A stretch of 64,000 bases of DNA from a virus. Position numbers and translations under genes: made by a program. Shown here piece after piece: positions 1-44,552 of the stretch. Each line of letters opens with the position of its first letter. The first letter of the stretch is position 1. The stretch lies in the IMG/VR virus record IMGVR_UViG_3300005289_000016, positions 212,033 to 276,032 of that record; one strand, 5' to 3'. The notes beneath the pieces were generated by a model that was not told the origin of the DNA, made no database searches, and saw nothing but the letters and a program-made list of their open reading frames with translations.

Positions 1-222
1 GAAGTCACCCTGGCTCGTGCCTCTACCTCCAACTTCGTGACTGAAGACCAGCACACCCAGTTGCTGGCAGCTCGTGAGTCGGCTAAGACCAACAACGAGA
101 CCCAGTCGGCTACCATCATTCGCTTGAGTGATGAACTGGCTCAGAAGAACGCACTGATTGCAGAGCAGGAACTGTTGATCCAGTCCTTGGCTGCACAGAT
201 CCCTTCTACCCCAGCACCATGA
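1..222 (+). CDS. C-terminal part of an unknown coiled-coil protein (partial)
   Basis: The frame is open from the first base, so the gene begins upstream of the window and only its last 73 codons are seen. A GTG at 37 lies inside this open frame and has no convincing ribosome binding site, so it is probably not the start. The visible part is rich in Glu, Gln, Leu and Ala with heptad-like spacing (SDELAQKNALIAEQELL), which suggests a coiled coil, and it ends in a Pro/Thr-rich tail. No function can be assigned. It converges on the helicase gene, with a perfect hairpin between them. Confidence 0.6.
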   Translation, partial: EVTLARASTSNFVTEDQHTQLLAARESAKTNNETQSATIIRLSDELAQKNALIAEQELLIQSLAAQIPSTPAP

Positions 223-230
223 CACACGGC

Positions 231-262
231 ATACAGGGCAGGCCACTTGGCCTGCCCTGTAT
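231..262. terminator. Bidirectional hairpin terminator between convergent genes
   Basis: A perfect 12-bp stem (ATACAGGGCAGG with its complement) closes an 8-base loop between two convergent stop codons. The outer arms extend to CATA and TATG, as in several other terminators of this window. Confidence 0.8.
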
Positions 263-266
263 GCTG

Positions 267-1838: not shown

Positions 1839-1864
1839 TCTTTGTCCCAAGAGGGTGAATACTG

Positions 1865-2410
1865 ATGTACAACATCAAACTGGTCATTGTGCCCGCATGG
1901 CTCGACCTCATTATGAAGGAGCTGGGCATCACGAACGATGATCTTGCAGACTGGGAGAAACTTTCAGGCATACTATCGCCGAGAGATCTTTTGATTTACA
2001 AGATGGTCAATTGGAACGCTGGTGAAGTGCTGGCGAAGCTGCCAGGCAGCAACCAGGAAGTGGCTAGCAGGCTCGTTGATGTGCTTGCCGTGGCCACTCC
2101 AGTGCCGACTCTGGAAGAACGTGCCTTCACTGCGAACCAGGAAATTGACACCTGGATCTACGGCGCTACCTGCACTCGTGACAAGGAGCAACAGCTCTAC
2201 GCTGAAGCTTACATGTCGGACAGTGAGGTATTGTGTGTAAGGCTGATTCCGTTCAGCCGTGCTTCTGACACTTTGAAGAATGAAGGCAAGACTCTCTCTG
2301 AGAAGATCGCCCACATTCTTTACAGCCGAGTTGGTTTGCAAGCGGCCGCACAGACCGGTGCTTTCAAACAGTATGTAAAGGAAATTCCTTTTAACTCGGT
2401 ATTGTATTGA
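1865..2410 (+). CDS. Unknown 181-residue protein
   Basis: Not recognised. ATG at 1865 follows an AGAGGGTG ribosome binding site. The protein is mostly helical by composition, with a hydrophobic N-terminus (MYNIKLVIVPAWLDLIM) too polar overall to be a clear membrane anchor. It lies between the divergent helicase gene and the capsid gene and is read in the capsid direction. No catalytic motif is visible. Confidence 0.6.
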   Translation: MYNIKLVIVPAWLDLIMKELGITNDDLADWEKLSGILSPRDLLIYKMVNWNAGEVLAKLPGSNQEVASRLVDVLAVATPVPTLEERAFTANQEIDTWIYGATCTRDKEQQLYAEAYMSDSEVLCVRLIPFSRASDTLKNEGKTLSEKIAHILYSRVGLQAAAQTGAFKQYVKEIPFNSVLY

Positions 2411-2416
2411 GACCCG

Positions 2417-2515
2417 TGCAGTAAAAAACTGCAATGGTATGCAAAACTTGCGAATGCGCTGAGCGATGATAAAGAGACCTCAGTATGCCTCGCAGTAAAT
2501 CGCAGCGCGCGCTGC
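2417..2515 (+). promoter_or_regulatory. Structured leader upstream of the capsid gene
   Basis: The 125-base leader between 2411 and 2535 holds a 6-bp hairpin with an A5 loop (2417-2433) and the self-complementary GCAGCGCGCGCTGC (2502-2515). A TATG lies at 2439-2442, between the two structures; TATG is the core reported for phiKZ late promoters. The strong codon bias of the downstream gene implies high expression, so a promoter or mRNA-stabilising structure here is plausible. This is inference from sequence only. Confidence 0.35.
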
Positions 2516-2535
2516 ATATTCCGCGGAGAAACACA

Positions 2536-4794
2536 ATGAGCGTAGTAGGTAAATCGGCTCGCACCAGTCAGCAAACGCTGAATGCGCAGGCCACAGCCAT
2601 TCAAGAGAAATTCAAGCAGGGCGGCATCGTTGGTAACAGCGCGATTGCCTCCATGGAATCCTTGACCACCCTGGACCACGAAAACCTGTTCGCCTCCATG
2701 GAATCGGCCGTGCTGTCCATCGGCGAAACCGTTTCGATGGAAGCGCTGGGCGACTTCGGCCTGAACGCCGCTGACCTGACCCGTGCTCAGAAAGACGCCA
2801 TGGGCGTGATCGCAATGGCCGCTCTCGAGCCAGGTGACTACGCTCGTCGCGCTCTGGGTGCCAGCGACATGTCGGCTCCGAAGACCGGTACCGTGGTTTC
2901 GGTTGAATCCATGGGCGACTTCGACTTCCAGGAGAAGGCCAACCCTTCGATGGAAGCGTTCGACAACTCGAACCTGACCGACTTCATCGGTCTGTCGATG
3001 GTTTACAACCAGAAAGCGGCCAAGCAGGGCGAGTTCGCTGAAGCGTTCTACCGCACTGTGATCCTGACTCCGGAACAAGGCGGCGCTGACGTCACCATCC
3101 GTAGCCACCTGGTTCTGAACCACTTCCTGCACAACACCCGCGGCGACCACGCCGATTTCAAACAGCGCCGTCTGCTCGAAGCTGCGATCAACTACAAGAT
3201 CCTGGCTGACCAGTCGACTACTCTGGTTCCTGAAATCCACGACGGCAACAAAGACCTCTTCGTCGCTGAAAGCGTCGTTGAGCCACGTTCCGTTGAACTG
3301 GGCAACCGTACCGTCACCACTTCCGCCCTGCTGATCGGCAAGCGCGTGAACCTGGTGGGCCTGGCTCAGAACAGCCTGGTGAAGATCGCTGGTCAAGCGA
3401 ACCAAACCGATGCTCTGGACCGCGCCGTTGGTCTGAAGACCCTGTACGTCCGTAAGGGCGATGCTGACGTTCTGGCATTCGACGTCGAAACCCTGCCTCG
3501 CGCTGCCTTCATCAAAGGCAACCAAGGCCTGGCTCGCGAACTCGAGCTGAACTTCCGTACCAGCTCCTTGCAGCTGAACGCGAACAGCGTCAACTACAAG
3601 GGCGAAGTGCTGACCAACCCGATCCTGAAGCAGATCGTCGACGGTGACTACCGTGTGACTCTGGCTGTTACCGTAACTGGTAACGTGGACACCGAGAAGG
3701 CCAACGCCACCGTCAACGCCGCACCGATCGTTGTCGACAAAATCGTCAACGCTGCTGGTGAAGTGCTGGCTCTGGACAAAGCGGGTCCTGGTAAGGACAT
3801 CGCCGACGCCCTGGCTGACCTGGTCATCATCGGTTGGGAACCGAACGCTCGCCTGTCCAACGCCAACCGTCGTCTGCGCGGTCTGCAACTGAACAGCTCC
3901 GAGTACACCGAGCGTTACCCAGTAATGCTGGGCAGCCCGTTCTCGATCCCGAGCCCGCTGCAAGAAGCTCGTGGCATGGCCGACATCGACCTGCTGGTTA
4001 CCGCTGCGCGTCTGCGTAACGACAACATGGCGATCACCACCCTGCTGCGCTTCACCGACGGCCTGAGCCGCTGGAAGTTCCTGACCGACGCCATCAACTC
4101 TGACGACCTGCTCCCAGAAGTTGAAGGTATCGCTCGCTTCCTGGTCAAGCCATGGTACCGTGAGCGCGACCTCGACCTGCGCAAGCTGGTTGTGTCCCTG
4201 CGTTCGTACGACCGCGTTCAAGACGTTCAGGCTGCTCTGGCCAACGTTCTGCGTAGCGACATCCAGGACTGCATCCTGGAATCCAACTACAAGACCGCGC
4301 TCGATGCGTACACCGGCTACACCGGTGAGAAGGTCCACGTTCTGATCGGTTCCGATCCGAAGACTGCCTCGTACATCATCACCACCGGCGACAGCCGTAC
4401 TCTGGGTGACGACATCACCTTCGAGAAGGTGTCGGCAGTTGACCAGCGTATCCGCAAGCAGATCTTCTGGACCTTCAAGCGTCAAACCGAAGGCCTGGAC
4501 CCTCTGAACTGCGGTACTCACTTCTGGATTCCAGAGCTGATCTCCCACGTGAACGTATCGCGTGACGAGACCCAGATCCGCGAAGCCATGGTTCAGCCGC
4601 GTAACCGTCACGTTAACCACCTGCCGATCTTCGGCAAGATCAACGTGATCGGCCTGGACGAAGTACTGTCGGAGGGCTGGCACATCCCAGTTGCCACATT
4701 TCCAGTTACCGGTGACGACACCACCGGTGGAGAAGGTGGCACTGACCAGCCTGTTGCCCCAGGTGATACCGGCAATGGCACCACCCAGCCTTAA
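2536..4794 (+). CDS. Major capsid protein
   Basis: Probable major head protein, 752 residues, close to the length of the phiKZ major capsid protein. The codon choice is the most uniform in the window (CTG, ACC, GCC, GGC, CGT), a sign of very high expression. I chose ATG 2536 because GGAGA lies 7 bases before it; an upstream in-frame ATG at 2485 has a weaker site. The N-terminus carries five S-x-E sites, ending at about residues 41, 56, 69, 124 and 140 (four S-M-E and one S-V-E). That matches the S/A/G-x-E cleavage rule known for the phiKZ head protease, so the first 140 residues are probably a propeptide. The C-terminus ends in a flexible Gly/Thr/Pro-rich tail. The capsid call rests on bias, size, cleavage sites and context, not on a searched alignment. 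Confidence 0.75.
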   Translation: MSVVGKSARTSQQTLNAQATAIQEKFKQGGIVGNSAIASMESLTTLDHENLFASMESAVLSIGETVSMEALGDFGLNAADLTRAQKDAMGVIAMAALEPGDYARRALGASDMSAPKTGTVVSVESMGDFDFQEKANPSMEAFDNSNLTDFIGLSMVYNQKAAKQGEFAEAFYRTVILTPEQGGADVTIRSHLVLNHFLHNTRGDHADFKQRRLLEAAINYKILADQSTTLVPEIHDGNKDLFVAESVVEPRSVELGNRTVTTSALLIGKRVNLVGLAQNSLVKIAGQANQTDALDRAVGLKTLYVRKGDADVLAFDVETLPRAAFIKGNQGLARELELNFRTSSLQLNANSVNYKGEVLTNPILKQIVDGDYRVTLAVTVTGNVDTEKANATVNAAPIVVDKIVNAAGEVLALDKAGPGKDIADALADLVIIGWEPNARLSNANRRLRGLQLNSSEYTERYPVMLGSPFSIPSPLQEARGMADIDLLVTAARLRNDNMAITTLLRFTDGLSRWKFLTDAINSDDLLPEVEGIARFLVKPWYRERDLDLRKLVVSLRSYDRVQDVQAALANVLRSDIQDCILESNYKTALDAYTGYTGEKVHVLIGSDPKTASYIITTGDSRTLGDDITFEKVSAVDQRIRKQIFWTFKRQTEGLDPLNCGTHFWIPELISHVNVSRDETQIREAMVQPRNRHVNHLPIFGKINVIGLDEVLSEGWHIPVATFPVTGDDTTGGEGGTDQPVAPGDTGNGTTQP

Positions 4795-28752: not shown

Positions 28753-29304
28753 TTACGCCTTGAAGTGGAAGTCATTGATCAGCGACAACCGCAGTTGCGC
28801 AGGGTTAGCAGCAACGCTGTGCTGGATGTAGCTCGGCATCAGCCACAAGTCACCAGCTTTCGGCGAGATGTAGTGTTCGCCGAAGTGCGAGTCACGCACA
28901 GCACGCGGATAACCACGCGATGCATTGAAACGCGGGTCGATTAGCGACATGCCGGCTTGGGAATCTTCCGGGTAGTACACACTGGTCAGGCAGGAGTTGC
29001 CATGTAGGTGTGCACTCAGACCTTCCTGATGATCGAAGGCCTTGCCGAAGGTGTCGATCATGACTTCTTTCGGCATGACGTTGAAGATCTTCTGGATGTA
29101 GTCTTCGGCCACAGGACGCAGGATCACGTCACGGAAGTGAGTCAGGGCCGGGAACATCTCAGGGGTGATTTCCAGCGGAGTCTGCGAGTTCCGAGGGGAC
29201 ATGCAGTGCAGCTGATGGATCTCATCAATGAGGGCCGCGTTATCCACTTGGTCCAGCAGATTGACGTGACCGATCTCGATTTTCCATGGTTGGAAGAGTT
29301 TCAT
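28753..29304 (-). CDS. 2OG-Fe(II) oxygenase-like protein, copy 1
   Basis: A 183-residue protein with the pattern of small phage/bacterial 2-oxoglutarate and iron dependent oxygenases: an HLHGNSCLTSVYYP strand with iron-binding His, a DPR turn, then PKAGDLWLMPSYIQHSV with the distal His, and LRLSLIND with the 2OG-binding Arg. Members hydroxylate proteins or small molecules. It is one of three adjacent paralogues and is read late with the endolysin. The likely role is side-chain hydroxylation in the radical SAM locus (inference). Confidence 0.65.
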   Translation of the reverse strand: MKLFQPWKIEIGHVNLLDQVDNAALIDEIHQLHCMSPRNSQTPLEITPEMFPALTHFRDVILRPVAEDYIQKIFNVMPKEVMIDTFGKAFDHQEGLSAHLHGNSCLTSVYYPEDSQAGMSLIDPRFNASRGYPRAVRDSHFGEHYISPKAGDLWLMPSYIQHSVAANPAQLRLSLINDFHFKA

Positions 29305-30444: not shown

Positions 30445-30873
30445 TTACTCCGTGAGGGATGCGATCCCTTCCTCAGTGCACTCGAGCAGACAGTACTTGA
30501 CCGACTTGGGAGCCCAGCCGCCTTTGATCCAGTCCGGCATGTCTTTCAACCGTTTTAAGATCGCTTCGTACGTTTCTGGATCGCAACTGTACGGGACGAA
30601 GTACGGGTCCTGATTAAGGAACAGGTCCTTGTCGTCGAGGATGGTCCGAACAGGCAGGTTGTAGAGATCACACAGCGTGAAGGCGTAGATGATGGCCACG
30701 GCGTAACTCTTAGCCGGGTACACCAACGGGAATTCAGCCTTCTGGAAGTACGCCAAGGCGTTCTCTACTAGCTCACCACTTTCGACGAACTCCATCAGGG
30801 AGAAATCGTCAGTGTGCTCGGTGACCAGCAGATTATAGAGCTGCTGGTATTCTTTATAAGGGAGAGTGTGCAT
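30445..30873 (-). CDS. Unknown 142-residue protein in the radical SAM locus
   Basis: The second of two adjacent ATGs (30873) has the better spacing from AGAGGA. It is a helical, Tyr-rich protein with no recognised motif. It overlaps the end of radical SAM gene 1 by 20 bases. It could be a partner or recognition protein for the enzymes around it. Confidence 0.5.
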   Translation of the reverse strand: MHTLPYKEYQQLYNLLVTEHTDDFSLMEFVESGELVENALAYFQKAEFPLVYPAKSYAVAIIYAFTLCDLYNLPVRTILDDKDLFLNQDPYFVPYSCDPETYEAILKRLKDMPDWIKGGWAPKSVKYCLLECTEEGIASLTE

Positions 30874-31918
30874 CATGTTCCTCTTTGGTCATCAGATCCC
30901 AGCGGTTCTTCATGTCGATGAGGCATTTTTCAGAACCCGTTTCTTCCATCAGGCGCTGAACGTCACACCGTGAACAACTATCGAGGAAACAGCAGTCGCC
31001 ACACTCAGGATGTGCACTGTATTTCTCAAGGTTACGGTAGTACGCTTCTTGCCGGTCTGCGATCACAGCTTCGGCAGTCCACGGCTTTGCCAGCTTGAAG
31101 TTGTCTTTGTAGATGGTGAGGTTCTCTACCAACACAATGGTCGAATAGAGGGAGCCGCCACGGTAGGTGAATTCATACCCTTCCTTGTTGCCTGGAATCA
31201 ATGGTACAAATTCAACGGTATTCACACGCTCTTTTGCAAAGTCAGCGAATACCTTCAGATCTCGCTTGAACCGCTCGGCATTCATGATGTTGTCGAAGCC
31301 TTGGCGGGCTGCCACAAAGGGGAACTCAATCACCTTGTGGATACCTTCGCCGAAGTCCATGTAGCGGATCTTCTTGAACGCCTCGTCGCTGAAGTGAGCA
31401 AGGTTACCTTCCTCGACGTTGATGGTGGCATACAGGCGACTGAACTCTGCTTTCTTCATCATGCCTTTGAATCGCGCAAGGCGATCCTTGAGGATGGCGA
31501 CGTATTTGTCGTTGCAGATATTCTTCAAGGTGATGGGTGTGCCAACGTTGACATACTTGCCGGGCATCAACTCATCCATCAACTCAGCGACTTCTTCCAG
31601 ATGGCGATCATGGAGCATCGCCATGTTGATCGTCAGCACTTTAAAGTGAGCAGCGATCTTGCGAAACGATGGGTGGCGCAATACCTGAAACCCGTTGTCC
31701 GCACTGGTAATGTCGGTCGGCCCTAACTTGAGTTCCAGCAGACGGAAGTCGTGGGCTTTCAAGTCTTCGAGCAACGCTTCCAAATCAGCCGTGTCTTCAT
31801 CAGACATGTCGAAGGGAGCGAAGTTCTTCTCGACAGTACAGCCGGGGCAGCTATAGCCACACCCCTTGAGGACTTCCAGACCCAAGTTAAAGGTCTGGGA
31901 TACACGTTCACTGAACAT
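30854..31918 (-). CDS. Radical SAM protein 1
   Basis: A 354-residue radical SAM enzyme. C20-x3-C24-x2-C27 (KGCGYSCPGC) should hold the 4Fe-4S cluster that cleaves S-adenosylmethionine. A C-terminal Cys group (CGDCCFLDSCSRC, then KCLI) suggests extra clusters, as in SPASM or twitch domains. LKLGPTDITSA in the middle and KPWTAEAV near the end are shared with radical SAM protein 2, so the two are a tandem duplication. Such enzymes commonly make C-S or C-C bonds or epimerise residues in peptides. Confidence 0.75.
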   Translation of the reverse strand: MFSERVSQTFNLGLEVLKGCGYSCPGCTVEKNFAPFDMSDEDTADLEALLEDLKAHDFRLLELKLGPTDITSADNGFQVLRHPSFRKIAAHFKVLTINMAMLHDRHLEEVAELMDELMPGKYVNVGTPITLKNICNDKYVAILKDRLARFKGMMKKAEFSRLYATINVEEGNLAHFSDEAFKKIRYMDFGEGIHKVIEFPFVAARQGFDNIMNAERFKRDLKVFADFAKERVNTVEFVPLIPGNKEGYEFTYRGGSLYSTIVLVENLTIYKDNFKLAKPWTAEAVIADRQEAYYRNLEKYSAHPECGDCCFLDSCSRCDVQRLMEETGSEKCLIDMKNRWDLMTKEEHDAHSPL

Positions 31919-34242: not shown

Positions 34243-35331
34243 TTAGCCTTTCGCGATGAGTTGGACAGATTCGTCCACGTAAGGTGTTGGGATCAGGTAT
34301 TCAGTCTGACCGTTCAATTCAATGATGCGAGGAGCCAGCGTCTTCATCTTCTTGCAATGATGTTCAGCCAGACCCAGTCGTTTAGTGTCAGCCACCGTCT
34401 TACGGCAACCGTTGCACACAGGGAACATCGGACACTCGTTACAGGCGTCCTTCATCGACCACAGTTCTTCCTGATTGCGCAGTGGAGTGAAGAACTCACC
34501 CGCCATCTCTTTCTCGAAGTCGATGGGGTACTTGAGGTCGTCACCAAAGGCTCCACAGGAGAAATACTGGTTGCCCGGTTGCAGACTGCGGATACCGCCA
34601 TCGCAATCACGGGACAGAGGGCAGATGGTGTTCTGCGTCGACAGGCGCTTGACCAATTGCTTGGTGTTGAACTCCCACTGCATGAGACCAGCGTCGTAGA
34701 TTTCAAGGTACTTCTCGTACATGTCAGCCTGAGTGTACATGGTCTCAGCGTTGCCCATGGAGACGCCCTTGTTGAGCACCACAGGACCAGAAGCTACCGC
34801 GTAGTTAACCTTGGCCTCTACGCCCATCCGCTGAGCCAGACGCACCGTGTCAAGGACCGTGTGCTCATTGCTCTTATCGACGACTGCAATGAAGTCAGGA
34901 CGATAGCCAATGCGCTCAAGGAACAGATCACTGACTGCCCAGAACTCTTCTTCAGTGAACGGCGTCTTATCGCCCTTGAGGCGTGCATCGCCGTACTGGA
35001 ACGAGGTCGTCACACCCAGACGTGGATGACGGAACAACTCTTCCCACATCTCAGGCTTCTTGTAGAAAGGCCAGAGGTTGCTGGTGAAGGAGATCGACGC
35101 ATCGGACTCCAGACGGTCTAGGATCGCGATCAGGTCCCAGTAATACTGCACAGGCATCATGAGAGGGTCACCGCCGTTAACGATGATGGTGCGCGTCTCA
35201 GGGTACCGTACGATGAACCGTTCCACATCCTCCAGACTCACGACCTCATTGGCGTCATCGGTCAGGTAGGTGCTGGAGCAAAAGGTGCACTTGAAGTTAC
35301 ACCGCTGCGTCGGCTTTAGGATCAGGTCCAT
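34243..35331 (-). CDS. Radical SAM/SPASM protein 4
   Basis: A 362-residue protein. ATG 35331 (MDLILKPTQRC) follows AAGGGG; the longer frame to 35373 lacks a site. C11-x3-C15-x2-C18 (RCNFKCTFC) and VNGGDPLM give the radical SAM core. The C-terminus has a full SPASM layout: C in TICPLSRDC, SCGAF, then CNECPMFPVCNGC and HHC. This is the arrangement seen in anaerobic sulfatase-maturase and RiPP-maturase enzymes. The gene start overlaps a 71-codon gene in another frame. Confidence 0.8.
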   Translation of the reverse strand: MDLILKPTQRCNFKCTFCSSTYLTDDANEVVSLEDVERFIVRYPETRTIIVNGGDPLMMPVQYYWDLIAILDRLESDASISFTSNLWPFYKKPEMWEELFRHPRLGVTTSFQYGDARLKGDKTPFTEEEFWAVSDLFLERIGYRPDFIAVVDKSNEHTVLDTVRLAQRMGVEAKVNYAVASGPVVLNKGVSMGNAETMYTQADMYEKYLEIYDAGLMQWEFNTKQLVKRLSTQNTICPLSRDCDGGIRSLQPGNQYFSCGAFGDDLKYPIDFEKEMAGEFFTPLRNQEELWSMKDACNECPMFPVCNGCRKTVADTKRLGLAEHHCKKMKTLAPRIIELNGQTEYLIPTPYVDESVQLIAKG

Positions 35332-35597: not shown

Positions 35598-36596
35598 CTA
35601 CAAGACGACTTTGAACATCTCTCGGATAGAGCAGACCTTGGACTTGCTGTCCAAGACCTTGTCGTGCAGGAAACAACGCAGCCCACACCGGGAGTAGTAC
35701 TCGCACTCAAAGCAACCGTAATGTTCCACGAATGCAACCTCAGCAGCGTCCTTGGCAATCAAGCCTTCAGTCTCGTCTAAGATCGCATCCTTACCTGCTT
35801 CAGACCAACAGGTACTGATCACGCCATCCTTGTTGATGATCTTGGTGGAGCGACACGTGGTCTCATTGATCACGTTGTTCTTCCAGTCCTTGATCGGATA
35901 CGAGTTCGGGTACTTGTTGTTCAGCGCAATGTACATCGTGCTGATCAGGTCTTCGTCAGGTTGGTGATGCAGGTACATCTGACTGGGGATGTAATGATCG
36001 AAGTACACATCGTACCGTTCACACATCTCAGCAAACTCCTCGCCTTCTTTACCGTCAAGGAATGTCTGGATGTTCTGTTTGGTGATCACCACGTTGACCG
36101 TCTGGACCAGATCACCCAGCGTCTCGAGGTTCTTGAAGAACAAGGCTCGTTGAGCAGGATTGAATCGACCAGCGGGGTCATAAGACGTGGCCAGCCAGAC
36201 ACGCTCATCAATCACCCGAAGGCGTTCGATAAGGTGCCTGACTCGGTCAGTGTTGTGATAAACGAGGTTCGTGCCAAAGACCAGTTTGATGTGCTTGAAG
36301 TGACTCAAGGCCATCTTGCCGGCTTGGTAGTAAGCTTCGAAGAGTTCGTCGCTCACCTCGTTCATGAACAGTTCACCGCCTGTGAAGTTAACCACCATGG
36401 CTGTGTCTGGATGTGTAGTCGCCAACAACTTAGCAACCTTGTCGATCACTAGATCCCCGTCGAGACCCACTTTGGAATCGTGGTCCTGGTGGCAGAATGA
36501 GCAGCGCATGTTGCACAGCTCGAACAGAATCAGGTGAGCTTCTTTCCACTTACCTTTCTTCTCACGCAGGATGTCTACAACAGGGATCAGGTTCAT
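35598..36596 (-). CDS. Radical SAM/SPASM protein 5
   Basis: A 332-residue protein with C28-x3-C32-x2-C35 (ELCNMRCSFCHQ), FTGGELFMN as the SAM-binding GGE turn, and SPASM-type Cys: CRSTKIINKDGVISTC, then YGCFECEYYSRCGLRCF and KVCSI. The GVISTC segment matches the SPASM iron-sulfur layout well. The ATG overlaps the stop of the upstream gene (TAATG). Expected to be an auxiliary-cluster enzyme acting on a peptide. Confidence 0.8.
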   Translation of the reverse strand: MNLIPVVDILREKKGKWKEAHLILFELCNMRCSFCHQDHDSKVGLDGDLVIDKVAKLLATTHPDTAMVVNFTGGELFMNEVSDELFEAYYQAGKMALSHFKHIKLVFGTNLVYHNTDRVRHLIERLRVIDERVWLATSYDPAGRFNPAQRALFFKNLETLGDLVQTVNVVITKQNIQTFLDGKEGEEFAEMCERYDVYFDHYIPSQMYLHHQPDEDLISTMYIALNNKYPNSYPIKDWKNNVINETTCRSTKIINKDGVISTCWSEAGKDAILDETEGLIAKDAAEVAFVEHYGCFECEYYSRCGLRCFLHDKVLDSKSKVCSIREMFKVVL

Positions 36597-37654
36597 TACC
36601 AGTTCGCTCCCTTGACGCAGTCCTTCAGGACGTCGACTTGTTCCGACAGGATGTACCGCACGAGGTTCTCGTCGTACTTGCCGGAGTCAGCGTTAGGCAG
36701 AGCCAGACGCTTGGCACCTTTGAACATGGTCAGCACCCGCTGCTTCAACACCTCAGGATCAAGGAGGTCTTCATCGGACGTGAGCAACTGATAGACCAGT
36801 CGAGTACGGCCCGCAGTCGGACCCTCGTCGCAATGATCCAACACGGTGATCAGTTCCAGAAGCAGGCCCTTGATCCACACGTCCGTTGGCTTGTTGTCGA
36901 ACAAGTTCGGCTGGAGGAACATGGTGCTGTTCAGGTAGTGGAAGTTCAACGTACCTTCGAACACGCTCTGCCCATTGAGCAGGGTGTTCATGTCAGCACC
37001 GGCGAAGTCCCAGGCTTCCGGGTTGGCGATCTGACGACCCCATACGTCGAGAGCATCGTAGCCGTTGGCCAGCGCGATGCGACGCAGGATGTTCTTCAGA
37101 GTCTTTGGCAGCTTGCCCACACGGTTGTCGGTGAACAGACGCATGATGCGCCATTCCAGCGACAGCGAGTCTGGGTTTTCAGTAACCAGCTCACCGAACA
37201 CTTCCTGATGAGGATCTTCGAACGCGAACAGTTCTTGAACGACCTGCTCGTTGATGGTCACTTCGTTCAGGATGTTGGTGGTCGGCTTGTGCATGTTCAG
37301 CAGCGACACCTGGAAGGTAGCCTTCTTGCAGAGCATGATCCAGCGGAACACGTCGATCGTGACGTTAGGCATTACTGCCTTGACCAACATGGTGTACAGG
37401 CGCAGGTAGGTCTGACCGTCGACGTAGACGAACACCTTGTCGTCTTGGCTGAAGATCTTGTCGAACAGGTCCTTGAACACATCGCCTTCAAGCGCGTCCA
37501 GAGACACCGCATAGCCAAGTTGCTCAGAACTCTCCTCGTACTCCGCCGGGTGATACTCAAAGCCCACACGTGGACTGATGGTGGCGTACGGAATACGCTT
37601 ACGTGAGATACGGGATTCGATCTCGACGTAGATTCGGTCACGCAGATGGTACAT
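36596..37654 (-). CDS. Unknown 352-residue protein in the radical SAM locus
   Basis: ATG 37654 (MYHLRDRIYVE) follows GGAGATTGAAC; an in-frame TTG lies 6 bases upstream. The protein is large, mostly helical, Leu-rich and without Cys clusters or enzyme motifs. It sits directly between radical SAM gene 5 and the SCHSNCH-bearing gene, overlapping the latter by 17 bases. It may be a scaffold, a virion component or a modification target. Confidence 0.5.
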   Translation of the reverse strand: MYHLRDRIYVEIESRISRKRIPYATISPRVGFEYHPAEYEESSEQLGYAVSLDALEGDVFKDLFDKIFSQDDKVFVYVDGQTYLRLYTMLVKAVMPNVTIDVFRWIMLCKKATFQVSLLNMHKPTTNILNEVTINEQVVQELFAFEDPHQEVFGELVTENPDSLSLEWRIMRLFTDNRVGKLPKTLKNILRRIALANGYDALDVWGRQIANPEAWDFAGADMNTLLNGQSVFEGTLNFHYLNSTMFLQPNLFDNKPTDVWIKGLLLELITVLDHCDEGPTAGRTRLVYQLLTSDEDLLDPEVLKQRVLTMFKGAKRLALPNADSGKYDENLVRYILSEQVDVLKDCVKGANW

Positions 37655-38480
37655 GTTCAATCTCCTTGACCGTCTTGTTCATCTGCTCAACAAGAGCATT
37701 GAACTGTTCAGGGACTTCCTGACCGATCAAGGCCATGAAGAAAGGGTTGTTCTGGTGAGCGAAGAACGCAAACAGGTTGGCCCCAGCGAAGCAGTATTCG
37801 TTGAAGAACAACTTGTTCCAGTTCCAATCGCTCTCTTCGATGCCCATGCAGACCAACGGGAAGTTGTCATGAGCAATCAACTTGACGAAGTTCAGACCTA
37901 CGAGGCCTTCTTCTTCATCTTGCGGGTAGTTCAGGACTTCTGACTTGAGGTCTTCTTTGCACTGGAAGGCATAAAGCGGCAACGAGTCCAGACGCCGGAG
38001 CCACAGGTCGACGAGGTCGTAGTTGGCTTCGATGAATGGCACTGGATCGAATGGCAGACTGAACGGTTTCCCGGTAGCCGCCAAGATCACGTTGATGGCC
38101 AACTCTTCCAGATCGCTGATGCTCACCAGTACAGTGGACTTGAGATAAGCCACCAGCAGGTTCTGCATGATCGTCTGGTCACCGAACTTCAACCGTACGG
38201 CGATGTTCAGGTTGGACAGGTACGTGATGAGCGCAGCGTCCTTCAGCCGACTGTTGTCAAGGCTGATGTGGAACTCTACGTTCTCGGTGAATTTGCGTTT
38301 TAAGTCGATGACCGGAATCGGTGCAATGGTCTGGATGACCACCAACCCATCGGGCTGTACGACTACTGTTGATGGCTCTTTGGGCAAGTCGTCAACAGAT
38401 GGTTCTTTGGACATGCGAGATCCTCCCCACATTGGGTTACTACGGCCGGCATTAGCGTGACAGTTAGAATGGCATGACAT
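37638..38480 (-). CDS. Unknown protein with N-terminal SCHSNCH segment
   Basis: The frame from ATG 38480 gives 280 residues and begins MSCHSNCHANAGRSNP, with TAGGAG before the ATG. A second in-frame ATG at 38414 (MSKEPSVDDLP) has a strong GGAGG site of its own. So two products are likely: a long form with the Cys-His segment and a short form without it. The body is a soluble alpha/beta protein of unknown function. The SCHSNCH segment repeats the C-terminus of the gene just upstream, and an 18-base identical DNA repeat encodes both. Confidence 0.55.
   Translation of the reverse strand: MSCHSNCHANAGRSNPMWGGSRMSKEPSVDDLPKEPSTVVVQPDGLVVIQTIAPIPVIDLKRKFTENVEFHISLDNSRLKDAALITYLSNLNIAVRLKFGDQTIMQNLLVAYLKSTVLVSISDLEELAINVILAATGKPFSLPFDPVPFIEANYDLVDLWLRRLDSLPLYAFQCKEDLKSEVLNYPQDEEEGLVGLNFVKLIAHDNFPLVCMGIEESDWNWNKLFFNEYCFAGANLFAFFAHQNNPFFMALIGQEVPEQFNALVEQMNKTVKEIEHVPSA
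38457..38474. repeat. 18-bp direct repeat encoding CHSNCH, copy 1
   Basis: GTGACAGTTAGAATGGCA is identical to 38553-38570. On the minus strand it encodes Cys-His-Ser-Asn-Cys-His near the N-terminus of the 37638-38480 product. Confidence 0.9.
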
Positions 38481-38531: not shown

Positions 38532-39071
38532 TTAACGACGACCACGTGCGCAGTGACAGTTAGAATGGCAACTGGTGTGGCAGATGACGTTCGATACTGC
38601 CAACGGGCTGGCACGGCAGTAGGCGTTGTAGTAGTTCCACAACTCATCGCAGCTTGACTGGAAGTTACTCAAGTCCAGGATAGCGCCCTTATAAAGGGTC
38701 GACAGCGGCGCCGCCGAAGCAAAGTCACCAACACCGTACGCCGAGTTAGCCACCGCAGTACCGTCGTAGATCAGTTGGTTACCGAGCTGATAGTGCGACC
38801 GGTAGATCAGGATACGCATCAGACGGATGTTACCGAAGACGTTTGCGAAGTTACGCAACACAGCCTTGGCCTGCGCAGCGGCAGGAGCACCCGCTTGGAA
38901 GTTACCAGCCCCTACTGTTTCAGCACGGCCGTTGGTATCGCCGTAGAACCAGCCTGGAATAGATCCGGCTGGGTAGCTGTTGGTACCCCACGAGATACCA
39001 GAATTGCATCGAGCCCGGATACGCGCCATGGCTTCAACGCCCATGCGGTTCCGTGTAAGTACTTCGGCCAT
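38532..39071 (-). CDS. Cys-His-repeat protein, candidate modification substrate
   Basis: A 179-residue protein. Residues 1 to about 160 are Gly/Ala/Asn/Tyr-rich and look folded. The last 16 residues are CHTSCHSNCHCARGRR, a four-residue repeat CHxx followed by a basic end. This resembles the core region of a ribosomally made, enzyme-modified peptide: an upstream leader-like part, a short repetitive Cys core and several maturases. It lies directly between radical SAM gene 6 (1-base gap) and the gene that opens with the same SCHSNCH. It might also be a virion protein whose tail is modified. No family is recognised. Confidence 0.6.
   Translation of the reverse strand: MAEVLTRNRMGVEAMARIRARCNSGISWGTNSYPAGSIPGWFYGDTNGRAETVGAGNFQAGAPAAAQAKAVLRNFANVFGNIRLMRILIYRSHYQLGNQLIYDGTAVANSAYGVGDFASAAPLSTLYKGAILDLSNFQSSCDELWNYYNAYCRASPLAVSNVICHTSCHSNCHCARGRR
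38553..38570. repeat. 18-bp direct repeat encoding CHSNCH, copy 2
   Basis: Identical to 38457-38474, in the C-terminal CHxx repeat of the 38532-39071 product. Confidence 0.9.
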
Positions 39072-39072
39072 A

Positions 39073-40107
39073 TCACACCTTTAGAATCAGGTTGGATTGT
39101 TGATTGCGACCCGAGAGGTAACGCAAGGTGTTCTTCAGTCCACCGCACCGCCCACTCTGCCATGGCAGACGGTGGCAGTCACCGCCGCACAGGTCAGACA
39201 CGTCGCACGCAAGGCATTCATCTGCCCAAGTCAACTCCTTGGCGATTTGCTCCACACGACCATCGGACTTGAGGAAGACTTCTACCCCCTCATCCATTTT
39301 GGCATGATGCAGTCGAGCAGCCGAATTCGGGCAGCCAGACAAAGAGCCGTCGGAGTTGATGGTCACCAGATTCTGCTCACAGTTGCGGCAGTTGGTGTCC
39401 ACCTTGACTACGTTGTTCTTCAGCTTCTCCTCGATGATGTCGAGGGTCTTGATCTTGTACGTTGGGTTGCGGGCCTTATACCGGTGGTACAGTGCGAGGT
39501 ACCAGTTGTCTTGCTCTTCGTTGTCCGGGAAGATCGACATGTTGACTTCAGCGTTACCGTCAACTGTCAGGCGCTCCAGAGACACGTCATCCACCGCGAA
39601 GCTGTCCAACTGGTCGAGCAGCCAGTCAGGGGTGGACTTGATCAACTCACGGCTCACAGAGACCTTCAGGGCAATGTGCACGCCATGACTGCGGAGCAAC
39701 TCAAGGTTGTTCTTCCACAGGTTGAATTGTTTCTCGTTACTCCATCGAATCCAGTGATCCCAGCTGGTGCCAATAACGCTACCGAAGTAGTCCTTGATGA
39801 AGTCGAGGTGAGCATCCGTGATCTTGAAAGTCAGGTTGCTGTTCGCACACATCGAGACATGCGGGTTGTCGAAGAAGTTATCGGCGTACCGCTTCAGCTT
39901 TTCCAGAGGTACGAGGAACGGCTCACCGCCATGGAACTCCATGTGGTAATGCGTACCCTCAGGGTACTTGGACATGAACTCTTTCACCCAGCCCGCAGTT
40001 GCATCGGGATCGAACTGGGTCTTGTCACCGTTCTTGCCATTGGTAAAGCAATGCTTGCAGTCCAGATTGCAGGAACCAGTGGTTTTGACATAAATGGTTT
40101 TGTTCAT
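39073..40107 (-). CDS. Radical SAM/SPASM protein 6
   Basis: A 344-residue protein with C13-x3-C17-x2-C20 (GSCNLDCKHCFTNG), the FHGGEPFLVP SAM-binding turn, and a complete SPASM region: CRNCEQ, LSGCPN, then CLACDVSDLCGGDCHRLPW and GRCGG. This is the clearest peptide-maturase-type enzyme of the six. It is transcribed immediately before the CHxx-repeat protein, which makes that protein its most likely substrate. Confidence 0.82.
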   Translation of the reverse strand: MNKTIYVKTTGSCNLDCKHCFTNGKNGDKTQFDPDATAGWVKEFMSKYPEGTHYHMEFHGGEPFLVPLEKLKRYADNFFDNPHVSMCANSNLTFKITDAHLDFIKDYFGSVIGTSWDHWIRWSNEKQFNLWKNNLELLRSHGVHIALKVSVSRELIKSTPDWLLDQLDSFAVDDVSLERLTVDGNAEVNMSIFPDNEEQDNWYLALYHRYKARNPTYKIKTLDIIEEKLKNNVVKVDTNCRNCEQNLVTINSDGSLSGCPNSAARLHHAKMDEGVEVFLKSDGRVEQIAKELTWADECLACDVSDLCGGDCHRLPWQSGRCGGLKNTLRYLSGRNQQSNLILKV

Positions 40108-40108
40108 G

Positions 40109-40621
40109 TTAAAGCTTCTTCTCTAGGAACTGCTCCAAGCCAAAACTCAGCATGATGGAGCTGTCAACGTTGATGGCCCGATGGTAGGTACCGCGAGGGA
40201 TGAATAGCGAATCCCCAGCCGACAGTTCTACCTGCCCATCTGGAGACTCAAAGACTTTGCGACCCTGGACCATGTAAATGATCACATCGTCGGGGTCGGT
40301 ATGCATGGTGAAGCTCTTCGAATCCTTGGGGGACAAGAAGAGATGACAGGACACAGGACCGTTGTGGTTAAAATGTCTGCCCAGTCGACGACATTCCTCG
40401 AACATGATGAAGTTCAACCGCTCAAAGCCTTCGACCTTGATGGGTTTGGTTTCACCATGCTCGAGGTAGTCGAGAGGACTCAAGGCCCCGTACGACTTGT
40501 CGTTCTCGATGTACTTGACCAACTGCTGCTCGTACGGATGAGGACTGTCGAAGAAACGGTCGAGTCCCAAGGATGCCTCGGTGATGCCGATAAACTCGTG
40601 ATCGTCCAATCTCTTCAACAT
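40109..40621 (-). CDS. Cupin/JmjC-type oxygenase-like protein
   Basis: A 170-residue protein with a double-stranded beta-helix: FTMHTDPDDVIIYMVQG supplies an H-x-D iron motif, then LSAGDSLFIPRGTYHRA supplies the third His. The H-x-D...H triad and length recall small JmjC/cupin-4 protein hydroxylases, rather than sugar-type cupins. It lies 1 base before radical SAM gene 6 and 24 bases after the tail fibre gene, so it opens the modification locus. Likely a protein side-chain oxygenase (inference). Confidence 0.6.
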   Translation of the reverse strand: MLKRLDDHEFIGITEASLGLDRFFDSPHPYEQQLVKYIENDKSYGALSPLDYLEHGETKPIKVEGFERLNFIMFEECRRLGRHFNHNGPVSCHLFLSPKDSKSFTMHTDPDDVIIYMVQGRKVFESPDGQVELSAGDSLFIPRGTYHRAINVDSSIMLSFGLEQFLEKKL

Positions 40622-40645: not shown

Positions 40646-42091
40646 TTAGTCTTGCCACAGCGCAGGCCATACTTGACGCCACGCACCACCGCCCCAGATG
40701 TAGACCCCAGATCCGTTCCAGTGCACCGAGCAGTCAAAGCCTGCTGCGTTCTTCGGAGCGTAGCGGGCATCGTGGTCAGCCGAGTTCAAGTGATCGAACA
40801 TGGCGCCTGCCGTGAGCAGGTAACCATCGGAGTTGACGGTTCGGCCACGGGTGATGGCGTTAGGGATGTTACTCAGGCCCACTTGTGTTTTAGTCACGTT
40901 GTGCGGGTTGCTGTAGTTCTGGATGTGGCTGTTGAGCAAGGTGCCTGCGATAGCAGTGATCGCGTCCTTGGTTCGAGCCGGCGTCATGAAGCGGTCCGTC
41001 AAGATACCCGCTTCCGCCTCAGCTTTGGTGGCTGTCTGGAAGTTGTCTACCAGACTGAGTCCGACTTGAGCTTTGGTGGTGTTGTGCGGGTTGTTCTTGT
41101 CGTTGACGTGGTTCTGGATCAACGTACCGGCATGCACCATGATTGCTTGGTACACACGCAACGGCGTCATGAACACATCGTTGGCCGTCCCACCTTCCGC
41201 CTGTGCCTGTGTGGCAGTCAGGAAGTTGTCCACGTTACCAAGTCCGACTTGGGCTTTGGTCACGCTGTGTGGGTTGTTCTTCTTGGCTTCGTGAGCATCC
41301 ACGAGTTCCTGAGAGATCCGGTTGGCCAAGATCGACACGAGTGTCGGAGTCATGTAGCGGTTAGCCACCACACCTGCCAGGGCTTCAGCGTTCGACGCGA
41401 TCTGATAGTTCTCAACCAGACCCAAACCGACCTGAGCTTTCGTGGTCTTGTGTGGGTTGTTGAAATCGTTCAGGTGAGCATCGACCTTGTCGTCCACGGC
41501 ATCGATGTTCGCTTGCAGCTGGTCACGGATGATCTGCATCTGCTGACGCAATTCATCGTGAGACGCTTCATCACCTACCAAAATGGCGTTGGTGATCCGC
41601 TCCAGTTGCCACACGACGTATTCCCACCCGTAGGTATCGCCGATGTCGTGGATGTGCGGAGCAGGCGGATAAGCGGTAGGACGACCAATGATCGAACCCC
41701 ACTTGATCGGACGCTCATCGAGGTTAACCTGTTCGAGCAAGTCAGCCAGCGCTGCCAAGTTCCAGGAGTACTCGCCACCCACAACCTGATAGCTGATCTC
41801 GACCGTGATCGGAGCCTGCAACTTGATGACGACCGCACACTGCACGTCCTTACCGCTTCGCAAGGAAGCCTGAGAGAACGGCTGTGCCAGTACAAAGTCA
41901 TCAACCGGTACCAGCGGGAGGCCAGTGTCCACGTTGATGATGGTAAAGGAGCCGGTGTAGAACGGGCCTGCCTTGGGTACGAACACTCGTGCGGTATTCG
42001 TGGTGATTTCCCGTCGCTCACCGACAATCAAGTTCGTCGGTGACGTACCGTCTAGATCAAGAGGGTACTGGATAATCGGTGGTACACTCAT
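40646..42091 (-). CDS. Tail fibre protein with NPH-TKAQVGLG repeats (fibre 1)
   Basis: A 481-residue fibre for host recognition. The N-terminal part (about 1-165) is homologous to that of the next fibre gene (PLDLDGTSPTN, RVFVPKAGPFYTG) and probably attaches to the baseplate. Four repeats of about 66 residues follow, each with NPHxxTKxQVGL, then A-rich helix, then a FMTP-type end. The C-terminus is short and aromatic (SVHWNGSGVYIWGGGAW) and may be the receptor-binding tip. It is transcribed just ahead of the radical SAM locus. Confidence 0.8.
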   Translation of the reverse strand: MSVPPIIQYPLDLDGTSPTNLIVGERREITTNTARVFVPKAGPFYTGSFTIINVDTGLPLVPVDDFVLAQPFSQASLRSGKDVQCAVVIKLQAPITVEISYQVVGGEYSWNLAALADLLEQVNLDERPIKWGSIIGRPTAYPPAPHIHDIGDTYGWEYVVWQLERITNAILVGDEASHDELRQQMQIIRDQLQANIDAVDDKVDAHLNDFNNPHKTTKAQVGLGLVENYQIASNAEALAGVVANRYMTPTLVSILANRISQELVDAHEAKKNNPHSVTKAQVGLGNVDNFLTATQAQAEGGTANDVFMTPLRVYQAIMVHAGTLIQNHVNDKNNPHNTTKAQVGLSLVDNFQTATKAEAEAGILTDRFMTPARTKDAITAIAGTLLNSHIQNYSNPHNVTKTQVGLSNIPNAITRGRTVNSDGYLLTAGAMFDHLNSADHDARYAPKNAAGFDCSVHWNGSGVYIWGGGAWRQVWPALWQD

Positions 42092-42161: not shown

Positions 42162-44552
42162 TCAGGCGAACAACGGCATGGAGGCGTCGATGACTGTGAT
42201 CAGTTCGTCGCACATCTTGCCAATGGAGTCGTCCACCTTGGCCGTGGTAGAGGCCGGCGTCATGATCAGGTTGGTTGCAGTACCGGTAATCGCTTGAGCG
42301 TTGGTCGCCGCCGCGTAGTTCGGCACACTGCCCAACCCTACTTGCGCCTTGGTCACGGCCTGAGGGTTATCGCGACGAGCGTCGAATGCCTTCAGTGCAG
42401 CAATTTCAGTCGCAGGGTCGGTGACGACCGCCGGGTAGACGATGTTGGCCGGTTGAACCGTAATGAGGTCAGACACCTCATCCCACACTGGGAACGTCGC
42501 CGCTACAAATTTCTTGTAGGTCAGCTCCGTGATGCACAGGCGGTTACGGGTACCGGTTGCCTTCAGCCAGATTTCCATCTTAGCCGAGGTATCCGTCCCT
42601 ACCGACACGACACCGATCTCGATCGGCTTGTCGCCCTTGGACAATTGGGTTACCCGCATGCCTTTAGGAATCATCAAGAACGGACCAGCTCCGTCGATGT
42701 TGTCATACACCGCACCAATCTCAACCAAGAGCGTGTGGTGCTGGAACTCGCCCAGTGCTTCGTCATCACGACCGCCAGTGATCATCAACGTGACGTCAGC
42801 GGTTTGATCGGATGCCGAGTGAGACAGTTCACCCAACTTGACCCAATGAGTCGGAGGCAGAACCTCAGTCCCCGAGCCGTTGTCGAGCATCGGCATTGGA
42901 GGGACGTCTGTCTGGATCGACGCACCAGAGACCGCACTGTTAATGTCAGCCTTTACTTCAGGGTAGGTCTTGCCATCGAACTTATCGGTGTCAGCTGCCT
43001 TACCACTGAGGATGTCGGCTTTGGCTTGCGGGTAGTTCTTACCGTCGAACTTCAGCGCGTTACCGGCGTCGATGGTCGCGATCCAAGCCTGCAATTGAGC
43101 CTGGGTCAGGTTGTAGACACGGCTGGAGTTAGCCGCAGTGCCATTGACATCCAAGCGCCCGTTGATCAGATCATCGATCTCTTGTTCGGTGTACGTGCCC
43201 ACCTGCGCCGCAGTAACATGGTGCGGGTTGGTGTAGTCCGTGACGTGCGCGTTGGAGCTGTCACCCACCAGTTCGTTGATCGCGTACCGGACAGCCAGAG
43301 GCGTCATGTAACGATCGTTGGCCGTAGCCGCACGAGACTCAGCTTCAGTAGCCACCGCGTAGTTCTGGACAGAGCCCAGTCCGACTTGGGACTTAGTCAC
43401 GCTGTGTGGGTTGTTGAAGTCCTGAACGTGGTCCTGAACTCCCGAACCGACAGTCTGGCTCAATACGTAAGCCAGCAGACGAGGTGTGATCACACCCGAG
43501 TCGTCCACACCAGACAAGGCTGCCGGGTTGGTCGCGATGCCGATGTTCACCACGTTACCCAGACCGACTTGGGCCTTGGTTGTTTGGTGAGGGTTGTTCT
43601 TGTCCGCGATGTGGTTATCGAGTTCGACCCCGACAATCGCTTCGATCGCTTCACGAGTCCGCAGGGGAGTCATGTAACGGGCGTTGGACGAACCAGCCTC
43701 TGCTTCAGCCTGAGTGGCCAATGCAAAGTTCTGCACACTGCCAAGGCCGACTTGAGCCTTAGTGGTCTGGTGCGGGTTGTTCATGTCCGCCAAGTGCAGA
43801 TTAAGCGCTGCGGTGGACACGGCGTCAATCAACTGCTTAGTACGCAGAGGCGTCATAAAGCGGTTGTTAGCCACACCAGCCTGAGCTTCACCAACGGTAG
43901 CCGTCGGGAAGTTATCGACCAGTCCCAGCCCTACCTGAGCCTTGTTGACTTCGTGTGGGTTAGCTTTGTTGGCGATGTGGTCTGCCAAGCCCCCGGCGTT
44001 CTTTTGAAGGATCGCCTTTTCGATGTCATCCAGCTCGTCGACCACTTCCGACATGCCGACGAAGTCGTCAATGTTGAAGTCGTGGTTGACCACCGGGAAT
44101 TCACGAGGCAGTTCGACCACCTGTTCCCAGTTCGCAATGCGCGGGTTGAACGCCACGTTAAGCAGAAGCTCGTTGAACTTCTGATCGTCCAATACCCAAT
44201 CGTCACCGATGGTCTGGTACTCCATGCGGAGTTGACCTTCAAGGTTACGATCGTAGAACGTAATGGCGCCGTAGACCGGCAAACCAATGGTATGAGACGC
44301 GTAAGCGAAGTGATAGCCGAAGTTGAAGTGCTCGCCCTCATTGAGGGGAGTACCCAAGGCTGGGTTGTTGACGTTGGCACCCTGCGGATACAGTCGCAGT
44401 TTCACGCTGTCAGCATAAAACGGACCGCTACGCGGAATGATGTAATAGTGATCGAACGTACCTCTCGAACGAATCGATTGGGTTTCGGTCACCTTGTTTG
44501 TTGCCGCGACACCCGTCGGATCGAAAGGGTATTGTGGAAGGACAGTACTCAT
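42162..44552 (-). CDS. Tail fibre protein with NPH-TKAQVGLG repeats (fibre 2)
   Basis: A 796-residue paralogue of fibre 1. An N-terminal attachment domain (YPFDPTGVAATN, YYIIPRSGPFYAD) is followed by five NPHxxxKAQVGLG-type repeats. Then come a spacer with two Y-P-x-x-K-A/V-D-I repeats, a beta-domain of about 140 residues, and a final NPQAVTKAQVGLG repeat at the C-terminus. The extra beta-domain may be a receptor-binding or trimerisation insert. It is the first gene of the minus-strand block that ends in the endolysin. Confidence 0.8.
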   Translation of the reverse strand: MSTVLPQYPFDPTGVAATNKVTETQSIRSRGTFDHYYIIPRSGPFYADSVKLRLYPQGANVNNPALGTPLNEGEHFNFGYHFAYASHTIGLPVYGAITFYDRNLEGQLRMEYQTIGDDWVLDDQKFNELLLNVAFNPRIANWEQVVELPREFPVVNHDFNIDDFVGMSEVVDELDDIEKAILQKNAGGLADHIANKANPHEVNKAQVGLGLVDNFPTATVGEAQAGVANNRFMTPLRTKQLIDAVSTAALNLHLADMNNPHQTTKAQVGLGSVQNFALATQAEAEAGSSNARYMTPLRTREAIEAIVGVELDNHIADKNNPHQTTKAQVGLGNVVNIGIATNPAALSGVDDSGVITPRLLAYVLSQTVGSGVQDHVQDFNNPHSVTKSQVGLGSVQNYAVATEAESRAATANDRYMTPLAVRYAINELVGDSSNAHVTDYTNPHHVTAAQVGTYTEQEIDDLINGRLDVNGTAANSSRVYNLTQAQLQAWIATIDAGNALKFDGKNYPQAKADILSGKAADTDKFDGKTYPEVKADINSAVSGASIQTDVPPMPMLDNGSGTEVLPPTHWVKLGELSHSASDQTADVTLMITGGRDDEALGEFQHHTLLVEIGAVYDNIDGAGPFLMIPKGMRVTQLSKGDKPIEIGVVSVGTDTSAKMEIWLKATGTRNRLCITELTYKKFVAATFPVWDEVSDLITVQPANIVYPAVVTDPATEIAALKAFDARRDNPQAVTKAQVGLGSVPNYAAATNAQAITGTATNLIMTPASTTAKVDDSIGKMCDELITVIDASMPLFA

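Follow-up and report, generated by a model that had tools for sequence, protein, structure and literature searches.

The window analysed here is a stretch of 64,000 nucleotides from a 276-kb virus record (IMG/VR IMGVR_UViG_3300005289_000016, positions 212,033 to 276,032), and its relative is Pseudomonas phage DT01, with 75% DNA identity across 56% of the region searched. On its minus strand it encodes a small protein that ends in a Cys-His repeat, which we call the CH-tail protein, and one base away a radical S-adenosylmethionine (SAM) enzyme of SPASM type, rSAM1, within a larger set of conserved genes, the cassette. We consider it probable that this cassette carries out a maturation, of the kind known for ribosomally synthesized and post-translationally modified peptides (RiPPs), on the C-terminal tail of a structural protein associated with the tail fibres. 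The central features are as follows.

38532 to 39071, minus strand: CH-tail protein, 179 amino acids (aa), a globular body of about 162 aa and a C-terminal tail
38535 to 38582, minus strand: the C-terminal tail CHTSCHSNCHCARGRR, three CHxx units and RGRR, kept on differing bodies, disordered in the model and presumably the target of modification
39073 to 40107, minus strand: rSAM1, SPASM-type radical SAM enzyme, 344 aa, with CxxxCxxC (C13/C17/C20) and SPASM-type cysteines, presumably the principal tail-modifying enzyme

A preliminary description of the window, drawn from the sequence by a model, had pointed to the CHxx-repeat C-terminus and to a SPASM-type gene 1 base from it, and both readings held. 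The 179-aa open reading frame (ORF) at 38532-39071(-) ends CHTSCHSNCHCARGRR, the C-terminus directly before the stop reading VICHTSCHSNCHCARGRR, and the gene at 39073-40107(-) carries, besides CxxxCxxC, eight SPASM-type cysteines (C240, C243, C259, C298, C301, C307, C311 and C321), all of these cysteines being invariant in 14 diverse relatives. The CH-tail protein is 47% identical to its DT01 orthologue (QTH80265.1). AlphaFold gives it a confidently predicted body and a disordered tail (mean predicted local distance difference test (pLDDT) score 91.5, about 90 to 98 in the body and about 53 in the last residues), and a tail of such low pLDDT is what a presented substrate tail would be expected to show; the model of a second body type consists of a helix, a beta-hairpin and a helix, followed by a low-confidence tail. 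Searched by fold against the PDB, neither body model found a match; the PDB likewise yielded no sequence relatives of the body or of the products of two downstream genes, X and Y, and no Pfam or NCBIfam family matched the tail proteins.

No relatives were found with the whole window protein as query, because the bodies diverge while the tail is conserved. A DNA pattern for CHxxCHxxCHxxRGRR, demanding neither frame nor stop, got round this and matched at least 119 viral stretches, with 18 further matches across 85k prokaryote genomes. In all recovered ORFs but one, the motif makes up exactly the last 16 residues before the stop; the exception is a Burkholderia sequence (L129) in which the pattern matched by chance, and neither this match nor those in Pseudacidovorax and Neobacillus were confirmed as tail proteins. 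In a set of 171 distinct tail proteins, both the Cys-His pair of every unit and the arginines R-4, R-2 and R-1 are invariant or nearly so; X2 is free, and X3 is mostly Ser, Asn or Ala (448, 55 and 23 in a count of 533 units). The consensus is CH-x-S/N repeated, then R-G/S-RR. The bodies that bear this tail fall into nine groups without mutual BLAST similarity at E<1e-3; profile comparison joins the two largest, mostly via the C-terminal helix and the tail, and the body of Agrobacterium phage Atu_ph07 is a fold match to the window model, with a template modelling (TM) score of 0.59 by query. Ser is drawn from both TCN and AGY codon classes and every Cys and His codon is in use; since codons are free while residues are fixed, selection acts at the level of the peptide rather than that of the DNA. 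The same varying codons rule out a DNA-level repeat or recombination site, the occurrence of the tail system in six isolates rules out a metagenomic artefact, and a chance motif was considered and rejected.

The tail reads CHTSCHTSCHSARGRR in DT01, CHSSCHTSCHGSRGRR in Burkholderia phages FLC8 and SURPRISE13 (FLC6 matches in the same place), CHSSCHASCHNSRSRR in gp170 of Atu_ph07 and CHTSCHASCHSSRSRR in Sinorhizobium phage Phosso. The last two (L142 and L143) and a few other loci have RSRR instead of RGRR, a replacement of Gly by Ser that 5 of the 37 tails selected through rSAM1 show. The marine body types had no relatives among 50,697 isolate records. The number of units varies from two at L283 (CHSNCHINRSRR) through the common three to four, without RGRR, at L286 and L287, and to tandem arrays of CHSSCHSNVPV type at L278 (5037-5720, 13 CH dipeptides) and L282 (5036-5740, 14 CH dipeptides), as expected of a repeated core.

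The pairing of the tail with radical SAM genes holds from either side. The radical SAM family PF04055 occurs in 49 of 50 tail-bearing viral records, in three or more copies in 45 of them, as against 6 of 50 random viral records, a single one of which has three or more copies; the controls were drawn with an unrelated 15-base pattern, and whole records were searched. When selection was by rSAM1 only, an alignment of 14 diverse rSAM1 sequences led to 343 viral relatives, of which 80 were kept and those with at least 1 kb downstream (n=72) were scored; a CH-tail protein adjoins rSAM1 in every one, 71 with the three-unit pattern and one, L283, with two units. The preliminary description had proposed a search for CHxxCHxNCH beside radical SAM genes in other genomes, and had allowed that the motif might lack any radical SAM association; the search was strongly positive by tail and by rSAM1 alike, and such a lack is excluded. 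The CH-tail protein thus has a maturase next door and a repeated C-terminal core, as RiPP precursors do. Klebsiella phage Eowyn has neither PF04055 nor a CHxxCH DNA match; according to the report on phage 332-Vera, Eowyn and DT01 are the phages most similar to it (PMC12390700). One random control record of 47 kb (L217, genome G094) holds seven radical SAM genes, lacks any match to CHxxCH, and is either another radical SAM-rich element or host DNA.

The genes immediately upstream place the cassette beside the tail fibres.

40646 to 42091, minus strand: tail-fibre/virion structural protein with NNPHxxTKAQVGLG repeats, matching phrog_2163 (virion structural) and tail PHROGs; upstream neighbour
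42162 to 44552, minus strand: second tail-fibre/virion structural protein with NNPHxxTKAQVGLG repeats

PHROGs assigns the genes upstream of the cassette in the window to virion structural and tail fibre classes, tail fibres adjoin the cassette upstream in the jumbo phages, and a fibre-like gene immediately precedes that of the tail protein at L100 (2824 aa), L026 (1076 aa) and L069 (698 aa). The CH-tail protein is encoded within a tail-fibre module, and this position after the fibre genes, together with the predicted globular body and disordered tail, supports the earlier idea of a modified structural protein.

The remaining genes of the cassette are these.

40109 to 40621, minus strand: cupin/JmjC-like Fe(II)/2-oxoglutarate (2OG)-type oxygenase, 170 aa, with H107-x-D109...H147 and K122
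38415 to 38480, minus strand: optional N-terminal extension of X, MSCHSNCHANAGRSNPMWGGSR, a second CHxxCH (CHSNCH) copy with its own AGGAG
37638 to 38414, minus strand: gene X (phrog_20767), conserved downstream partner
36596 to 37660, minus strand: gene Y, 354 aa, conserved in the cassette
35598 to 36596, minus strand: rSAM2 (FELCNMRCSFCHQ), radical SAM enzyme, PF04055 28.7 bits, phrog_1802
34243 to 35331, minus strand: rSAM3 (TQRCNFKCTFCSS), radical SAM enzyme, PF04055 45.8 bits
32843 to 33847, minus strand: rSAM4 (SYYCNLRCEFCYL), radical SAM enzyme, PF04055 36.7 bits
31908 to 32936, minus strand: rSAM5, divergent putative radical SAM protein, CxxxCxxC and C-terminal CxxC...C, no Pfam match
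30854 to 31918, minus strand: rSAM6, divergent putative radical SAM protein, as rSAM5
30445 to 30876, minus strand: P143 (phrog_20737), conserved cassette protein of 143 aa
29879 to 30442, minus strand: 2OG-Fe(II) oxygenase (PF13759), 49.5 bits
29319 to 29876 and 28753 to 29304: further OG2-profile matches

The minus-strand order in the window is two fibre genes, the cupin/JmjC-like gene, rSAM1, the CH-tail gene, X, Y, rSAM2, rSAM3 and rSAM4, followed by the two divergent CxxxCxxC proteins, the 143-aa protein and the 2OG oxygenases. Profiles of the window genes map to up to about 200 loci and to none of 120 control loci, and the order CUPIN-rSAM1-TAIL-X-Y-rSAM2-rSAM3-rSAM4-P143-2OG recurs over a range that extends from short marine contigs to Agrobacterium phages of 490 kb, not strictly, since here and there some genes are absent or displaced. 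Iteration made the four main rSAM profiles overlap, and each protein was therefore given the class of its best-scoring profile. In rSAM5 and rSAM6 the CxxxCxGC motif and the C-terminal Cys are invariant, and the depositors of DT01 annotated its rSAM6 orthologue as radical SAM; hhalign against rSAM1 aligned the C-terminal Cys region alone, at 5.8% probability, so the rSAM1 fold is not demonstrable for the two and we name them putative. At L003 (12903-14080, S13 gp77 and gp78) two consecutive genes annotated as dihydrofolate reductase lie within the radical SAM cassette.

The second CHSNCH copy begins at 38480(-) as MSCHSNCHANAGRSNP and runs in frame into gene X, which also has its own start and a GGAGGA at 38414. 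Eighteen bases of the copy are identical to the tail coding sequence, and M[ST]C-type starts occupy its place in five close relatives, four of them open into X. This copy may be a second, N-terminal substrate or the leftover of a duplication.

The cassette is not confined to phages. In metagenome-assembled genomes (MAGs) of Bdellovibrionota it sits amid chromosomal genes; to judge by their sequences, cbb3-oxidase-like genes lie near the cassette at L379 and a ribosomal protein S20-like gene near that at L386. Proteins with the peptidase-S74 fibre chaperone domain are encoded near the cassette at L378 (15956-17143) and L386 (6655-7692), the former with a type-IV-pilin N-terminal methylation motif, and beside each of the two S74 genes is that of a smaller protein ending GRHWV(K/Q)VK. 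Bdellovibrio uses phage-like S74 fibres on its prey (PMC10769870), and the S74 genes near chromosomal cassettes are thus an independent hint of a fibre role. Also near the L379 cassette, a B12-dependent radical SAM protein (1569-3281) resembles the KedN5-type C-methyltransferases at 84.5 bits, below cut-off, which suggests a predicted added methylation. Several matches of a search in Bacteriovoracia were low-complexity sequence. In one genome of that class (G171, L363) an ORF of at least 519 aa (1471-3030(-)) ends in seven CH[DNS]A units and CVSGGSH, and adjoins a radical SAM gene (118-1458(-)) of SPASM type that belongs to a different subfamily; the pair is possibly a parallel CHxA system.

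With regard to chemistry, rSAM1 falls marginally below the cut-offs of PF04055 (E 1.2e-6, 29.2 bits against 29.5) and TIGR04085 (25.7 bits against 27). Its top curated matches, none of which comes near its cut-off, are with sulfatase maturases, with enzymes that form cyclophanes and with maturases that form thioethers, the best of the NCBIfam equivalogs being a sulfatase maturase model (51.4 bits against 349); no NCBIfam equivalog for a named rSAM RiPP maturase family matched above its curated cut-off. The H-x-S/N of the unit fits the three-residue ring topology of the cyclophane enzymes, a thioether would suit the invariant Cys, and the last unit is similar to a formylglycine site. The 40109-40621 protein matches JmjC_2 (37.9 bits, above cut-off over a short stretch) and Cupin_2 (38.3 bits) in Pfam. 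All 150 relatives have H107, D109 and H147, and 146 of them have K122, so that it has, as far as residues can tell, the facial triad H-x-D...H and the 2OG-binding Lys; we take the spacing of triad and Lys to fit the JmjC oxygenases of FIH type. With the JmjC protein hydroxylases (MINA/NO66/YcfD type and FIH) it would share the cupin fold, H-x-D...H and a Lys 15 residues past the first His. It differs from them in being small and stand-alone, and although its solved relatives include the histidyl hydroxylase MINA (E 4e-5), quercetinase and other cupins score better. The His/Arg-rich tail is a plausible substrate for such an enzyme.

Several known systems resemble this arrangement in part. The rSAM/SPASM RiPP systems (YhhB, AmcB and FxsB for cyclophanes, the ranthipeptide enzyme PapB) likewise set a SPASM enzyme beside a C-terminally repetitive protein, whereas here a folded domain of 100 to 350 aa stands in place of a short leader, each cassette combines a JmjC-like enzyme with 4 to 8 genes of radical SAM type and lies in a phage tail module, and all scores are far under the family cut-offs. 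The His-Xaa-Ser (Hxs) system of Haft and Basu (HxsA, HxsB/HxsC) has C-terminal H-x-S repeats and radical SAM enzymes in common with ours, and H-x-S is found in 448 of 533 units; the unit here is nevertheless C-H-x-S, with an invariant Cys, period 4 and an RGRR end, and rSAM1 is no HxsB orthologue by TIGR03978 (26.6 bits against a cut-off of 370).

What else might the tail be? Alternating Cys and His make a good metal ligand set, the tips of T4 gp37 bind iron through HxH motifs, and the cassette adjoins fibre genes, so the tail could be a plain Zn-, Fe- or Cu-binding C-terminus of a fibre subunit while the rSAM enzymes modify fibres or X and Y. We regard this as unlikely: the tail is obligately paired with rSAM1, even at loci chosen by rSAM1 alone, the same tail sits on unrelated bodies, and metal binding explains the conservation of neither RGRR nor the non-ligand X3 (S/N). 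Classical RiPP precursors, too, typically have a Cys-rich repeated C-terminus and a SPASM enzyme as neighbour, and one Bacteriovorax MAG has ABC transporter genes near its cassette, which would suit a peptide (a bacteriocin or signal) that is cleaved and then secreted or freed at lysis. That the tail is such a precursor is decidedly improbable, given that no peptidase or exporter was seen in the phage cassettes and no GG-type cleavage site precedes the tail, that the conserved body is confidently predicted to fold as a domain and far exceeds a leader in size, and that the gene lies within a tail-fibre module.

Alternatively, rSAM1 might act as an anaerobic sulfatase maturase does and convert tail Cys to formylglycine, leaving an aldehyde for covalent attachment. 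Its best curated match is of this class, a sulfatase maturase is also among its solved relatives, and the last unit, C-H-x-S-R with an invariant Arg-4, resembles the motif C-x-[P/A]-x-R. We nonetheless find this very improbable, as an Arg at +4 is offered to the third Cys only and is absent at L286 and L287, the model score is far under its cut-off, and the conserved His and S/N are left unexplained. The idea that the radical SAM genes serve host metabolism as auxiliary metabolic genes (AMGs), or DNA modification, with the CH-tail an incidental neighbour, can call upon a Baltic virus study in which an ahbD radical SAM gene is listed among the AMGs, its function being called speculative (PMC9301287). 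This is barely credible beside a conserved gene order, the all but complete co-occurrence of tail and radical SAM genes across very divergent phages and the retention of the same partners in chromosomal cassettes; moreover, no metabolic radical SAM equivalog was matched above cut-off.

Some observations weigh against a dedicated tail-modifying cassette, the reading we favour. RGRR is not universal (L286, L287), and where bodies are of the QLRTFDK type, the tail pair is adjoined by another CxxxCxxC protein and the rSAM1-type gene is some 5 kb away. The 72 loci of the rSAM1 selection are often closely related and hold 37 unique tails, and the correlation between rSAM1 and body distances across 73 dereplicated loci (Mantel r 0.68, equalled in 0 of 5000 permutations), which otherwise speaks for this reading, could also stem from vertical co-inheritance alone. 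No mass spectrum or virion proteome of such a protein was found in the literature covered. Finally, rSAM1 is about equally near sulfatase maturases, cyclophane enzymes and thioether enzymes, so that no particular bond is predicted.

On the favoured reading, the protein at 38532-39071 would be a tail-fibre-associated structural protein of the virion, most likely a fibre-tip or adhesin-type subunit, whose conserved body serves as a very long "leader" that presents a flexible tail, (C-H-x-S/N)n-R-G-R-R, as the substrate of the RiPP-like enzymes. rSAM1 would abstract hydrogen within the CHxS/N units and so introduce cross-links or oxidations; a His-x-Ser/Asn three-residue ring of cyclophane type would be our preferred product, before a Cys thioether and, last, Cys-to-formylglycine oxidation. 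The JmjC-like enzyme might hydroxylate His or Arg of the tail, and rSAM2 to rSAM4 and the 2OG oxygenases might add further modifications to the tail or to adjacent fibres, the end product being a rigid, oxidised or metal-binding tip for attachment or penetration. We tentatively suggest, with somewhat less than even confidence, that in phages and predatory bacteria alike one radical SAM cassette of several enzymes builds a cross-linked, hydroxylated Cys-His tip on attachment fibres. It is conceivable, if rather short of probable, that this shared chemical tip is both the first virion protein matured by radical SAM enzymes and a case in which RiPP-like chemistry ends in a structural adhesin instead of a free peptide.

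Parts of this gene set have been noted before. Radical SAM clusters of the same or similar genes are known in jumbo phages: the respective reports note six radical SAM genes in DT01 (PMC8541153), describe eight inside the structural cluster of 332-Vera as "highly unusual" (PMC12390700) and mention radical SAM genes in FLC6 and S13 (PMC8066314, PMC11898562), and the passages covered propose no substrate, CH-tail or function. The Bdellovibrio MAT fibre adhesins (PMC10769870), like phage fibre tips, bring S74 chaperones and attachment fibres together in predators and phages, and our cassette likewise lies near fibre and S74 genes; that paper, for its part, mentions no radical SAM or CH-tail component, the words "radical" and "cysteine" being absent from its text. 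We found no account of the CH-tail or of its radical SAM pairing in the literature covered, which excluded subscription papers and bioRxiv, and the CH-tail system looks like a previously undescribed way to modify the tip of an attachment protein chemically.

When phages carry genes for radical SAM enzymes or 2OG oxygenases, these are usually filed as auxiliary metabolic or DNA-related, and the cassette would give many such enzymes a concrete protein substrate that belongs to the machinery of attachment. A new post-translational modification is thereby predicted for a virion protein of hundreds of environmental phages and six isolates, and phage adsorption would be tied to the fibres of predatory bacteria. 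A multi-enzyme modification of the repeated CHxS/N unit would, in addition, be a source of new peptide chemistry.
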